Program-made: the position numbers and the translations under genes
Shown here: in pieces, positions 53,861-57,912 of the stretch
Layout of the letters: the number at the start of each line of letters is the position of its first letter
Numbering within the stretch: the stretch's first letter is position 1
Notes under the pieces: generated by a model
What the model saw: the letters and a program-made list of their open reading frames with translations, nothing else
Database searches by the model: none
Told to the model about the DNA's origin: nothing
Source of the DNA: Bacteroidota bacterium
GTDB lineage: Bacteria; Bacteroidota; Bacteroidia; UKL13-3
DNA length: 57,912 bases
Direction: 5' to 3'
NCBI GenBank assembly: GCA_947507965.1
Contig: CANNQU010000012.1
Location: forward strand, 1 to 57,912

Positions 53861-54964
53861 ATGAAAATTGGAACCATTAAAGAATCGAAAAACAAAGAGA
53901 ACCGTGTCGCCTTGTCGCCCGACGTAGTAAAAAACTTCATCAAGCAAGGGTTTGAATGTGTGATTGAAAAAGGGGCAGGTTTAAACTCTTATTTTACCGA
54001 TGAGTCGTATAAAAATGCCGGTGCTGAGATATTAAACTCAGCCTCCGAAGTATGTAATGCTTGCGACGTTATCGTAAAAGTAAATGCCCCAAGCTACGAC
54101 GAGATTGAGAAATTAAAAGAGGGGAGCATTTTGGTCTCTCTGCTTTACCATCTCACCAACCCGGCTCTTATTGCGGCGTTGAATGCAAAGAAAATAAGTG
54201 TTTTCAGTACCGATGCCATGCCCCGGATAAGTAGAGCGCAAAGTATGGACGTGCTTAGCTCCCAAAGTAATTTGGCGGGTTACAAAGCGGTGATCCTCGC
54301 TGCCGATCATGCTCCTAAAATTTTCCCTATGCTGATGACGGCTGCTGGCACCATTACCCCGGCTCGGGTGGTAATTTTTGGTGCAGGGGTGGCTGGCTTG
54401 CAAGCCATTGGCACAGCCAAACGCCTGGGTGCCGTGGTGGAAGTAACCGATATTCGCTCGGAAACAAAAGAACAAGTGGAGTCGTTGGGTGGAAAGTTTA
54501 TCTCCTTCGATATCGGCGAAGTGAAAACAGAAGGAGGCTATGTGAAGGAAGCCGGTGAGGAGGTGTTAAAACGCCAGCGTGAAATATTGAAAAAGCATTT
54601 GGCTACCGCCGATTGTGTGATTACTACCGCTTTGATTCCTGGAAGAAAAGCGCCTGTTTTAATTACCGAAGAGATGGTGAATGTGATGAAATACGGAAGC
54701 TTAATAGTAGATATGGCGGTGGAGCAAGGTGGCAATTGTGAGTTGAGTAAGCCGGATGAAATTATTGAACGTAACGGGGTGAAAATTATTGGACTTACCA
54801 ATTTGCCAGGAATGCTGCCTCAAAATGCCAGCGAAGGATATGCGAAAAATATTTATAATTTCCTTACTCATCTGGCTACCAAAGACGGGATGAAGTGGGA
54901 GCTGGAAGAAGAAATTACAAAAGGAACCTTGATATGCAATAAAGGCGAGGTTTTGAGGTCGTAA
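53861..54964 (+). CDS. pntAA: NAD(P) transhydrogenase subunit alpha, part 1 (NAD-binding)
   Basis: The soluble NAD(H)-binding domain I of proton-translocating transhydrogenase. The 367 residues begin MKIGTIKESKNKENRVALSPDVVKNFIKQGF, typical of alanine-dehydrogenase/PntA fold proteins, with the Rossmann GAGVAGLQAIGTAKRLGAVVEVTDIR segment near 175-205 and DMAVEQGGNCELSKP near 290. In this phylum the alpha subunit is split into two genes, and the membrane part follows after 84 bases. The complex makes NADPH using the proton gradient. Confidence 0.95.
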   Translation: MKIGTIKESKNKENRVALSPDVVKNFIKQGFECVIEKGAGLNSYFTDESYKNAGAEILNSASEVCNACDVIVKVNAPSYDEIEKLKEGSILVSLLYHLTNPALIAALNAKKISVFSTDAMPRISRAQSMDVLSSQSNLAGYKAVILAADHAPKIFPMLMTAAGTITPARVVIFGAGVAGLQAIGTAKRLGAVVEVTDIRSETKEQVESLGGKFISFDIGEVKTEGGYVKEAGEEVLKRQREILKKHLATADCVITTALIPGRKAPVLITEEMVNVMKYGSLIVDMAVEQGGNCELSKPDEIIERNGVKIIGLTNLPGMLPQNASEGYAKNIYNFLTHLATKDGMKWELEEEITKGTLICNKGEVLRS

Positions 54965-55048
54965 GGTGAACGAGAGAAATAGAAGTGGTTAAACATAGGG
55001 CTTAAATATTATATATAAGTATCGAAATAAGTAAATTTAAAGAATATC

Positions 55049-55360
55049 ATGGAACAAGTTTTAGAATTTATAAGTGTCAATAAGGAAATGTTTTACCTTG
55101 TGGCGTTGATGATTTTTTTGGGAATCGAACTCATCGAAAAGGTACCATCGGTGTTGCACACTCCTTTAATGAGTGGAGCCAATGCAATACACGGGGTGGT
55201 TATTATCGGAGCGATTATTATTTTGGGGGAAGCTACGGATACGGTGTCGAAAATATTAGGTTTTATCGCCGTCGTATTAGGTACCTTGAACGTCGTTGGT
55301 GGCTTTGTGGTAACCGATCGTATGTTAGACATGTTTAAGAAAAAGAAGAAACAAAATTAA
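55049..55360 (+). CDS. pntAB: NAD(P) transhydrogenase subunit alpha, part 2 (membrane)
   Basis: The membrane segment of the alpha subunit as its own gene of 103 residues. Hydrophobic helices lie near 16-28 (MFYLVALMIFLGIEL), 46-61 (AIHGVVIIGAIIILGEA) and 68-85 (VSKILGFIAVVLGTLNVVGGFVV), followed by TDRMLDMFKKKKKQ. FVVTDRMLDMFK is the conserved end of the family. It sits between pntAA and pntB with gaps of 84 and 59 bases. Confidence 0.93.
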   Translation: MEQVLEFISVNKEMFYLVALMIFLGIELIEKVPSVLHTPLMSGANAIHGVVIIGAIIILGEATDTVSKILGFIAVVLGTLNVVGGFVVTDRMLDMFKKKKKQN

Positions 55361-55419
55361 GATTTTTACGCGCTGTTGTAAGCATCCATTACTATTTATC
55401 ATTAACGAAAAATTAAAAA

Positions 55420-56844
55420 ATGTCACACTATATTTTAGATATAATTTATATCATCGGAGCCTTAAGTTTTATTTTTGGAATTAAACTTCTTGGGAAGCCG
55501 GAGAGTGCTAAAAGAGGTAATTTTATTGCCGCTATTGGAATGACCATTTCCATTATTGGAACTATTTTTTTATTCAATTCAGGCTCAGCGGAAACGATCG
55601 TCCACCTGCAGAATGTGCCTTTAATTTTTACGGCTATTCTCATTGGTACCATCATCGGTACCATTATGGCGAAGCGTGTGCAGATGACGCAGATGCCACA
55701 AATGGTTTCTTTTTTTAATGGTATGGGTGGTGCCTGCGCTGCATTAATATCATTGGTCGAATACCATCATGTGAGTACTTTACCAGTAGTCGATGGAATT
55801 CCTGCCATGGAAACGGGCAAAGCCATCGTCATTTATTTAGGTTTAATCATAGGCTCTATTTCCTTTGCCGGAAGTATGCTGGCGTACTTAAAATTAGATG
55901 AAAAAATAAAAGATAAAGTATTGCCTTTTCAACAAGTGATTAATGTAGGGCTGATGGCTGTAATTTTAGGCATTGCAGCATGTAGTATTTTTGGATGGTT
56001 TGTGATACCCAATGCGCTGTATTTATTGCTTGCTATATCGCTTATGTATGGGGTGCTTTTTGTAATGCCCATTGGTGGTGCCGATATGCCGGTGGTCATT
56101 TCTTTATTGAACTCTTTTACTGGCGTGGCGGCTGCATTTGGTGGTTTTTTATATGATAATAAAGTCATGCTCTTCGGTGGTATCCTGGTAGGAAGTGCCG
56201 GAACACTTTTAACCGTGCTCATGTGCAAAGCCATGAATCGCTCCTTGCTTAACGTATTGATAGGGAATTTTGGTGGTGGTGCAAATAAAGGCGAAGCGCG
56301 TGCCATTACGGGAAATATCAAAGAAATAACGAAAACCGATGCGGCCTCACTGATGAAATATAGTAAAAAGGTAGTTATTGTACCGGGTTATGGTTTAGCG
56401 GTAGCTCAAGCCCAGCATATTTGTCATGAACTCGAGCAACAGTTGGAGGCGAATGATGTGGAGGTGAAATATGCTATTCACCCGGTAGCGGGCCGAATGC
56501 CGGGACACATGAATGTGCTGCTTGCTGAAAGTAATGTGGCGTATGAAAAATTAATGGAGATGGACGAAATAAATCCTGAGTTTAAAACCACCGATGTGGT
56601 GCTTGTGGTAGGTGCTAATGATGTTGTTAATCCGGCAGCTAAAAATGATCCGGCATCGCCAATCTATGGTATGCCTATTTTAAATGTGGAAGAGGCGGCT
56701 ACTGTCATTGTGATGAAACGGAGTATGAAAGCCGGTTATGCAGGTATCGAGAATGAGTTGTTTTATAACGACAAAACAAGAATGCTCTTTGGCGATGCGA
56801 AAAAGTCACTCACTGAGCTGGTTGCCGAGTTGAAGAATGTTTAA
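55420..56844 (+). CDS. pntB: NAD(P) transhydrogenase subunit beta
   Basis: Membrane and NADP-binding subunit of 474 residues. Eight or nine membrane helices occupy the first 270 residues, with MPQMVSFFNGMGGACAALISLVEYH containing the conserved glycine-rich proton-path helix. The NADP domain III (about 300-474) includes VIVPGYGLAVAQAQH, VKYAIHPVAGRMPGHMNVLLAESNV, VLVVGANDVVNPAA and a closing MFFNDKTRMLFGDAK-like segment (here NELFYNDKTRMLFGDAK). It completes the pnt operon. Downstream is the repeat array. Confidence 0.96.
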   Translation: MSHYILDIIYIIGALSFIFGIKLLGKPESAKRGNFIAAIGMTISIIGTIFLFNSGSAETIVHLQNVPLIFTAILIGTIIGTIMAKRVQMTQMPQMVSFFNGMGGACAALISLVEYHHVSTLPVVDGIPAMETGKAIVIYLGLIIGSISFAGSMLAYLKLDEKIKDKVLPFQQVINVGLMAVILGIAACSIFGWFVIPNALYLLLAISLMYGVLFVMPIGGADMPVVISLLNSFTGVAAAFGGFLYDNKVMLFGGILVGSAGTLLTVLMCKAMNRSLLNVLIGNFGGGANKGEARAITGNIKEITKTDAASLMKYSKKVVIVPGYGLAVAQAQHICHELEQQLEANDVEVKYAIHPVAGRMPGHMNVLLAESNVAYEKLMEMDEINPEFKTTDVVLVVGANDVVNPAAKNDPASPIYGMPILNVEEAATVIVMKRSMKAGYAGIENELFYNDKTRMLFGDAKKSLTELVAELKNV

Positions 56845-56870
56845 GGAAAAGCGGTTTGTGATGTCGTAAA

Positions 56871-57313
56871 AACAGGGTCAATACCTCCATTTTTCCGTCG
56901 CTTCATGAATATGTTGATGGCACCAGATGAACGGCATTTATAGGCTTTTTTTTGAGATCCTTCCTTCGTCAGGATGACAATACAACAGGGTCAATACCTC
57001 CATTTTTCCGTCGCTTCATGAGTATGTTGATGGTACCAGATGAACGGCATTTATAGGCTTTTTTTTGAGATCCTTCCTTCGTCAGGATGACAATACAACA
57101 GCGTCAATGCATCCGGTTTTCCGTCGCTTCATGAGGGTGTTAATGGTTGCTGATGAGCGGTGTTTTTTCGAGATCCTTCCTGCGTCTGGATGACAATACA
57201 ACAGCGTCAATGCATCCGGTTTTCCGTCGCTTCATGAGGGTGTTAATGGTTGCTGATGAGCGGTGTTTTTTCGTGTTGGTTTTGAGATCCTTCCTTCGTC
57301 TGGATGACAATAC
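56871..57313 (+). repeat. Tandem array of roughly 113-bp repeats
   Basis: Four units begin with AACAGGG or AACAGCG at 56871, 56984, 57097 and 57200, giving periods of 113, 113, 103 and 114. Units 1-2 (type A) share GTCAATACCTCC...; units 3-4 (type B) share GTCAATGCATCC... Every unit ends with the same core, starting GAGATCCTTCC and ending GATGACAATAC, whose ATCCT/AGGAT arms can pair. The gene-free stretch 56845-57380 is essentially this array. Confidence 0.9.
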
Positions 57314-57380
57314 AACACCGATTATTAATGAGAATATACGAATGAATGATGGGACAGAGAAATTTGAGTAGTTGATCCCA

Positions 57381-57788
57381 TTGTATTGTCATCCTGACGA
57401 AGGAAGGATCTCTTGTATTTCATCATTGAAAAACTTCCATTCTGGATTAAAAGCAGCGATAAGAGTTTCTTTGTTCTTTCTTGACCAGCCTTTAAGAACC
57501 TTTTCTCTATATATTGCCCTGTTGATGTATCTGAATTGTTCCCAATATACAAGATAATAGGCGTTATACTTTCCGGTAAAGTGCTTCTTTGTTGTTTTCG
57601 CATCTTGTTCATGTTCAAGTAAGCGTCTGTTGAGATTATTTGTTACGCCTATATACAACACGCTTTTTGTTTTATTGGTTGTAATGTACACATAGAAAGT
57701 CTGAATGCCTCCTGCAAGTTTCATACTGTTTTTTTTACAAATATAATAAAGGAATTGAGATCCTTCCTTTGTCAGGATGACAATACAA
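57381..57788. mobile_element. GIY-YIG gene bracketed by inverted repeat cores
   Basis: A 32-bp copy of the array core lies at 57381-57412 in inverse orientation. A forward copy lies at 57757-57788 with one mismatch in 32. The outer ends read TTGTATTGTC and GACAATACAA. The gene between them runs on the minus strand. This 408-bp layout looks like a small inverted-repeat-bounded element, but target-site duplications are masked by the surrounding array. Confidence 0.5.
57389..57724 (-). CDS. GIY-YIG endonuclease-family protein
   Basis: A 111-residue single-domain GIY-YIG nuclease of the small UvrC/SLX1-like family common in Bacteroidota. The signature is split between FYVYIT (Tyr11, Tyr13) and YIGVTNN (Tyr24-Ile-Gly), followed by LNRRLLEHEQ, with the metal-binding Glu expected in the later NRAIYREKVLKG helix. 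Length is normal. The last seven residues (EILPSSG) and the stop are encoded inside the inverted copy of the surrounding repeat core. It is predicted to cleave DNA; no target is known. It sits alone within the repeat array. Confidence 0.88.
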   Translation of the reverse strand: MKLAGGIQTFYVYITTNKTKSVLYIGVTNNLNRRLLEHEQDAKTTKKHFTGKYNAYYLVYWEQFRYINRAIYREKVLKGWSRKNKETLIAAFNPEWKFFNDEIQEILPSSG

Positions 57789-57912
57789 CAGGGTCAATAC
57801 CTCCATTTTTCCGTCGCTTCATGAATATGTTGATGGCACCAGATGAACGGCATTTATAGGCTTTTTTTTGAGATCCTTCCTTCGTCGGGATGACGATACA
57901 ACAGGGTCAATA
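57787..57912 (+). repeat. Continuation of the repeat array at the window edge
   Basis: A type A unit begins AACAGGG at 57787 and a further unit begins at 57900, giving a period of 113. The array runs past the end of the window, so its full length is unknown. Its core here reads GTCGGGATGACGATAC with two base changes from the other copies. Confidence 0.9.

Follow-up and report, generated by a model that had tools for sequence, protein, structure and literature searches.

Palindromic repeats of the REP type in bacteria mostly fall into two classes, namely a GTAG-tagged one, for which the RAYT tyrosine transposase is the partner enzyme, and a CGTC-tagged one (Di Nocera et al. 2013, PMC3733652). 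In the latter superfamily, which includes Neisseria dRS3 as well as Rickettsia RPE-4 and RPE-6, the unpaired tag can also read TGTC or CCTC, the stem starts with AT and copies are mostly paired, while no dedicated transposase is apparent (PMC3733652). REPs are often located at the 3' ends of genes, and RAYT genes with terminal inverted repeats have been described as TIRtrons (PMC3733652). The strongest candidate for the missing partner of one of these two large REP classes is the family of small GIY-YIG nucleases, and on balance the enzyme encoded at the locus described here would, judging from sequence comparison, be a cognate partner of TGTC/CGTC-tagged palindromic repeats that acts on the REP hairpin.

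The locus lies at the end of the window, i.e., the whole analysed stretch of 57,912 nucleotides from a Bacteroidota genome, and comprises the following features:

55420-56844: pntB-like gene, whose 3' end borders the downstream array
56845-57324, plus strand: downstream direct-repeat array with units of 103-114 bp, between the GIY-YIG gene and the 3' end of the pntB-like gene
56954-56985, plus strand: REP core of the downstream array, from the pattern search of the genome
57067-57098, plus strand: REP core of the downstream array, from the same search
57170-57201, plus strand: REP core of the downstream array, from the same search
57284-57315, plus strand: REP core downstream of the gene, forming an inverted pair with 57381-57412 across a 65-nt spacer
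57381-57412, minus strand: REP core over the 3' end of the gene; minus strand 5' GAGATCCTTCCTTCGTCAGGATGACAATACAA, plus strand TTGTATTGTC-ATCCT-gacgaagga-AGGAT-CTC
57389-57724, minus strand: GIY-YIG nuclease gene (111 aa), with its last seven codons and stop inside a REP copy
57757-57788, plus strand: REP core on the upstream side of the gene, in opposite orientation to the 3' copy and identical to it in 31 of 32 positions
57870-57901, plus strand: next REP core farther upstream, at a unit spacing of 113; the contig ends at 57912

Directly before the array lie three clustered pnt-like genes (by sequence, the transhydrogenase subunits alpha 1, alpha 2 and beta; 53861-56844), and the array thus adjoins the 3' end of what looks like an operon. 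Contig C12 stops where the window stops, so that an assembly break interrupts the array. A sequence-only reading of this DNA had described the gene as bracketed by inverted 32-bp cores, with its final seven residues and stop inside one of them and with direct repeats of the same core around it. All of this is borne out, since bases 57389-57412 (24 of the 32 core bases) make up the last seven codons and the stop, and the surrounding units follow each other at 103-114 bp. Seven core copies are present in the window at up to three mismatches, compared to none expected from 100 dinucleotide shuffles, and a second inverted core pair (57284-57315 and 57381-57412) lies directly downstream of the gene. 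At the same threshold, 65 copies occur in the window's genome and none for a reversed control pattern, where genome copy counts, here and below, stem from pattern searches limited to the replicons or stems searched.

The encoded protein matches the GIY-YIG family model PF01541 with 54.9 bits (cut-off 22.6) over residues 10-85 in a family-model search, and its conserved domain stops near residue 103. Among 45 aligned GIY-YIG sequences, Y24, G26, R34, E74 and N93 are invariant, while Y13 and H38 are kept in at least 90%; the motif set of the family (two Tyr, Gly, Arg, His, Glu, Asn) is thus conserved, as befits a member of PF01541, and we take the catalytic roles of these residues to be those generally known for the family. 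A structure search with the AlphaFold2 model of the protein (pLDDT 89.9) placed UPF0213 at the top, followed by SLX1 and the GIY-YIG domain of UvrC, with I-TevI far behind, all matches having E values of at least 0.001, so that the likeness holds at fold level only. According to this model, the protein is a small stand-alone predicted GIY-YIG nuclease with a UPF0213/SLX1/UvrC-like fold. It shares fold and motif residues with UPF0213/YhbQ-type small GIY-YIG proteins (1zg2, 1ywl), SLX1 and the UvrC domain, for none of which we know of a palindromic repeat partner. SLX1 and UvrC are structure-specific repair nucleases, and this known function together with the shared fold suggests, by analogy, that the protein may likewise be a structure-specific nuclease, which would be apt for hairpin REPs. 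A role in a defence system was considered and rejected, as PADLOC matches to PDC-S14 were marginal only (E 0.005-0.008). Second full-length copies of the gene, in tandem or nearby, were seen within the same locus in two cases (L109, 5928-6281 and 6622-6975; L181, 1365-1670; 100% and 85% identical).

The window core, which from its tag reads TTGTC-ATCCT-gacgaagga-AGGAT-CTC, is palindromic, and its TGTC tag is unpaired. The flanks of 79 relatives of the gene yield the general form [T/C]GTC-AT-NNN-GA..GA-N'N'N'-AT-C; of 310 flank copies, 238 have a T and 38 a C directly before GTCAT. For the three variable bases of the stem, 542 complementary versus 109 non-complementary control matches were counted in these flanks, and at least six stems are common (TTC, TCT, TCC, GCT, CCT, CCC and others); hence, the stem is kept by compensating changes. 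The repeat shares with the CGTC superfamily the unpaired CGTC/TGTC tag in front of the stem, a stem starting with complementary AT (ATCCT..AGGAT in the window, AT-NNN..N'N'N'-AT in the relatives) and mostly paired copies. The stem of 8-9 bp, the loop of 4-5 nt and the CCA tail of that superfamily, however, are not found in the window core, which has a strict stem of 5 bp, an interior of 9 nt and a CTC tail; the REPs of the Bacteroidota studied differ by a shorter strict stem (about 5 bp plus GA..GA) and a tail that is usually CT. By sequence, the window repeat is therefore REP-like rather than a strict member of the CGTC/TGTC superfamily. In contrast, REPs around Proteobacterial homologues do have stems of 8-9 bp, loops of 4-5 nt and often a CCA tail, and the REPs that bracket the GIY-YIG gene in Rhizobiaceae and Azospirillum, or surround it in Neisseria, are of the same type as the superfamily. 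While no associated transposase gene is reported for the latter (PMC3733652), a GIY-YIG gene accompanies the repeats here.

How regularly gene and repeat occur together was assessed at 79 loci of the closest relatives across Bacteroidota, which are phylogenetically non-independent. At 69 of the 79, a repeat of at least 28 bits is common to the 300-nt flanks to the left and right of the gene, which is the case for none of 237 slots of gene length placed at random in these loci. By a simple pattern, a GTC-AT REP is present within 400 nt of the gene in 74 of the 79 relatives (random slots 101/790, coding DNA included) and on both sides in 61 (random slots 4/790). REP density amounts to 6.27/kb within 300 nt of the gene versus 1.59/kb in the remaining intergenic DNA of these loci, and the number of REPs per locus, 1.6-1.9 in the 250 nt adjoining the gene, falls to mostly 0.0-0.1 past about 1.5 kb. 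The commonest arrangement, seen in 26 of 60 cases, has the tags of the nearest copies pointing outward on both sides. At 31 loci of the window's own family, which extend to more distant GIY-YIG proteins, the simple pattern detected a REP at only 19. The pairing is specific with respect to RAYT: among 20 RAYT control loci from genomes of the window's family, a GTC-AT REP was found at only two and on both sides at none, so that RAYT was discarded as the general partner of this repeat, while repeats with other palindromes flank the RAYT gene at 13 of the 20. The window's genome has two RAYT genes, and their 2.5-3.8-kb loci likewise hold other palindromes and no GTC-AT REP.

The sequence-only reading had taken the repeat-encoded C-terminus as a hint that repeat and gene spread together and had proposed to look for both flanking cores and repeat-encoded 3' ends at other GIY-YIG genes. 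The flanking cores are indeed widespread, as the two-sided REPs attest. A REP over the stop codon, on the other hand, was strictly called in only 5 of the 79 relatives, or at least 12 if repeat-encoded tails are added, and this fusion was accordingly abandoned as the key feature. The repeat-encoded C-terminus is incidental and follows from the position of a REP directly downstream of the gene; constant are the REPs on both sides, while the core sequence varies between genomes. Among pairs of genes with 50-60% protein identity, the stems agree in a fraction of 0.15, rising to 0.94 above 80%, a trend for which shared ancestry alone suffices.

Enzyme and repeat also go together on the level of whole genomes. 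Among 198 Bacteroidota genomes of at least 90% completeness, the enzyme is present in 100 and undetected in 98, and at least three REP copies occur in 54 of the former versus 9 of the latter (Fisher p 4e-12; within-family permutation p 1e-4), with 1327 versus 92 REP copies in total; the pattern covers T-first stems only, so that CCT, the stem in the window's own genome, escapes it. The nine REP-bearing genomes without a detected enzyme count against a cognate partnership. Within the window's family, its own core is found with 68 copies in the window's genome, four in genome G022, two in G021 and none in the other 61 genomes, and the core of G022 is a covarying CTC/GAG form adjoining a degenerate copy of the GIY-YIG gene.

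Beyond Bacteroidota, 18 homologues from a plasmid collection were inspected with 600 nt around each. Matching palindromes were found at 11 of them, while no convincing REP was seen within this distance at the other seven. In Neorhizobium, Rhizobium, Shinella and Azospirillum, canonical CGTC REPs flank the gene on both sides. REPs are located only upstream of it in Aeromonas caviae and only downstream in Photobacterium, and they surround it in Planktothrix and Spirosoma. In Neisseria gonorrhoeae, 12 dRS3-type repeats occur within 600 nt of the homologue, compared to 0.1 expected from the 153 copies in the record (NZ_CP119140.1, L187), which is filed as a plasmid but with 2.17 Mb is chromosome-sized. 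All five matching REP copies of the searched S. meliloti replicon are located at the gene, within about 800 nt, as are all three of the searched Neorhizobium replicon. In Shinella PSBB067 and the Bacteroidota genome G088, many dispersed copies are arranged as pairs of 80-102 bp with their tags pointing outward, and the same arrangement brackets the gene at 425 and 484 bp. On plasmid p1 of Planktothrix agardhii (L199), gene and REPs lie between a type IIL restriction-modification gene and the DISARM gene drmA.

Taken together, the comparison with RAYT/REP drawn in the sequence-only reading is strongly supported across phyla. As in the REP/RAYT (TnpA-REP) system with its GTAG REPs and REPINs, a single-copy small nuclease gene is flanked by tagged palindromes which are also dispersed in the genome, often as inverted pairs; gene and palindromes vary between genomes, and deletion derivatives retain the palindromes. 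The GIY-YIG/REP pair works like REP/RAYT, yet is no member of that system, as enzyme fold and tag differ: REP/RAYT relies on an HUH tyrosine transposase (PF01797) and a GTAG tag, whereas the present protein matches GIY-YIG and the tag is TGTC or CGTC, and RAYT genes in genomes of the window's family carry other palindromes. A literature search confined to an open-access library brought up no publication that connects GIY-YIG enzymes with REPs.

Azospirillum shows gene and repeats present or absent as one block. In A. lipoferum, the gap between sufB and sufC contains about 530 nt consisting of two REPs, the GIY-YIG gene and two further REPs, while A. oryzae, A. ramasamyi and strain B510, with flanks about 95% identical, are without this gene-plus-REP block; the intergenic flanks of the empty sites are too diverged to place the element ends or a target-site duplication to the base. 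Derivatives with a deleted gene keep their REPs. S. meliloti has a REP-gene-REP unit beside one in which the REPs enclose an internally deleted gene (3' about 80 nt), and many dispersed elements in the window's genome retain the core together with the 3'-terminal ~104 nt of the gene, one of them (C9, 5994-6773) with gene nucleotides 2-33 fused to 262-336, i.e., an internally deleted copy. In Sinorhizobium K101 (L278, about 1466-1500), a single double-tagged palindrome stands where S. meliloti (L191, 2665-2830) has a REP, a GIY-YIG derivative and another REP; it looks like a product or precursor of an exchange between two REPs, and recombination between two flanking REPs would, by its sequence, give such a palindrome.

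From these observations, we infer that the enzyme recognises, cleaves and helps to copy its REPs. The usual unit would be a REP, the GIY-YIG gene and an inverted REP, as counterpart of the REP/RAYT unit, and the dispersed form would be short pairs of a REP and an inverted REP without the gene. The enzyme would recognise the REP hairpin (TGTC/CGTC tag plus AT-first stem), either single-stranded or extruded, and nick or cut it, whereupon copying during repair or replication, or recombination, could carry the REP pair to new sites, occasionally with the gene. GIY-YIG enzymes hydrolyse DNA without a covalent intermediate; since this chemistry alone does not join DNA, host repair would have to make the connection to a new site.

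For the window's own genome, another mover has to be considered. Dispersed elements composed of arrays and gene remnants end there in an inverted 24-nt motif, LE (GGTTATTCCNNATTTGATGTGCTG), of which 61 copies occur in the genome, most of them near contig ends, and none in a control. Complete dispersed elements read LE, REP array, 3' remnant of the GIY-YIG gene and inverted LE. Pairs of LE also bracket RAYT genes in the window's genome (G000, contig C52) and in two other species of the genus (G022 and G023):

L089, 1307-1330 and 2172-2195: inverted LE motifs with a RAYT gene between them
G022, contig C43, 14767-15705: RAYT gene between inverted LE motifs
G023, contig C2, 44558-45641: RAYT gene between inverted LE motifs

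Moreover, a RAYT remnant, repeats of the RAYT type and the repeat that belongs to a second GIY-YIG gene occur inside LE units. Where they enclose RAYT genes in this genus, the LE ends resemble the terminal repeats of TIRtrons; in the window's genome, the same ends also bound GIY-YIG/REP arrays, and with contents of either kind LE is a layer apart from the GIY-YIG/REP pairing. Arrays and gene could hence be cargo of a RAYT-linked element, in which RAYT recognises the inverted LE ends and the GIY-YIG/REP cluster hitch-hikes. Such an element can explain the dispersal in this genome, and we consider this reading, for this genome only, slightly short of an even call: a single LE end type is common to GIY-YIG, RAYT and other contents, so that the mover is not told apart, and RAYT genes do not themselves carry the GTC-AT REP. 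Amplification of array and gene here may thus be due to RAYT or to some other enzyme that acts on LE. As LE was found only in the window's genus, it gives no account of the pairing in other families and phyla, which is thus unaffected. The earlier claim that repeat and gene spread together is thus unproven in the window's genome, where RAYT may have moved the arrays.

GIY-YIG enzymes also include homing endonucleases, and the enzyme could accordingly be a passenger which cuts REP-like sites and whose gene copies itself into REP clusters moved by something else. The position of the gene in the middle of a REP pair, like that of a homing gene within its own cut site, and the single palindrome of Sinorhizobium K101 opposite the REP-flanked derivative of S. 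meliloti would fit this idea. Ordinary recombination of two flanking palindromes, though, explains the K101 site equally well, and all matching REPs of the S. meliloti and Neorhizobium replicons searched cluster at the gene, leaving no prior pool of targets there. Intron homing was rejected for the window gene, which is intergenic and lies in neither an intron nor an intein, and UPF0213, SLX1 and UvrC outrank I-TevI in the structure search, all of which renders a homing passenger improbable. Still less probable is a host repair or hairpin-processing nuclease that merely tolerates, or is regulated by, REPs gathering without its action: its fold is that of structure-specific repair nucleases and REPs are common at gene 3' ends (PMC3733652), but the enrichment is two-sided and specific to the GIY-YIG gene compared to random slots and RAYT genes, and a gene-plus-REP block inserted in one species and missing from 95%-identical relatives does not resemble a fixed housekeeping gene.

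Cognate partnership between enzyme and repeat is hence retained as the favoured reading. In its general form, small GIY-YIG nucleases would probably be the missing dedicated enzymes of CGTC/TGTC REPs, including dRS3 and perhaps the Rickettsia palindromic elements of that type. They would form, next to RAYT and independent of it, another kind of nuclease partnered with REPs, with repeat hairpins in many phyla as substrate. With the enzyme family located beside REPs in Bacteroidota, Alphaproteobacteria, Betaproteobacteria and a cyanobacterium, a testable enzyme-substrate hypothesis is at hand for REPs so far without a partner. If true, tagged hairpin repeats would be paired with two unrelated nuclease folds; the same hypothesis gives a starting point for understanding the dRS3 arrays of Neisseria and the tails of REP-like sequence in annotated proteins.

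Other GIY-YIG genes were also noted beside repeats. The second small GIY-YIG gene of the window's genome (G000, contig C57, 293-553; L001, L092) is flanked by a different repeat (..GTCATGCAGAGG../ ..CACGGGCCATT..), which also occurs beside an LE end on contig C25, and gene and repeat are possibly another cognate pair. Members of a more distant group of the YVYILKC.. type (L054, L056, L061 and L063 as well as L060 and L062) lie among repeats with other palindromes, and two of them end in tails such as SGFDFAQPPA and SAGFGSAQPPE, which are seemingly repeat-encoded.
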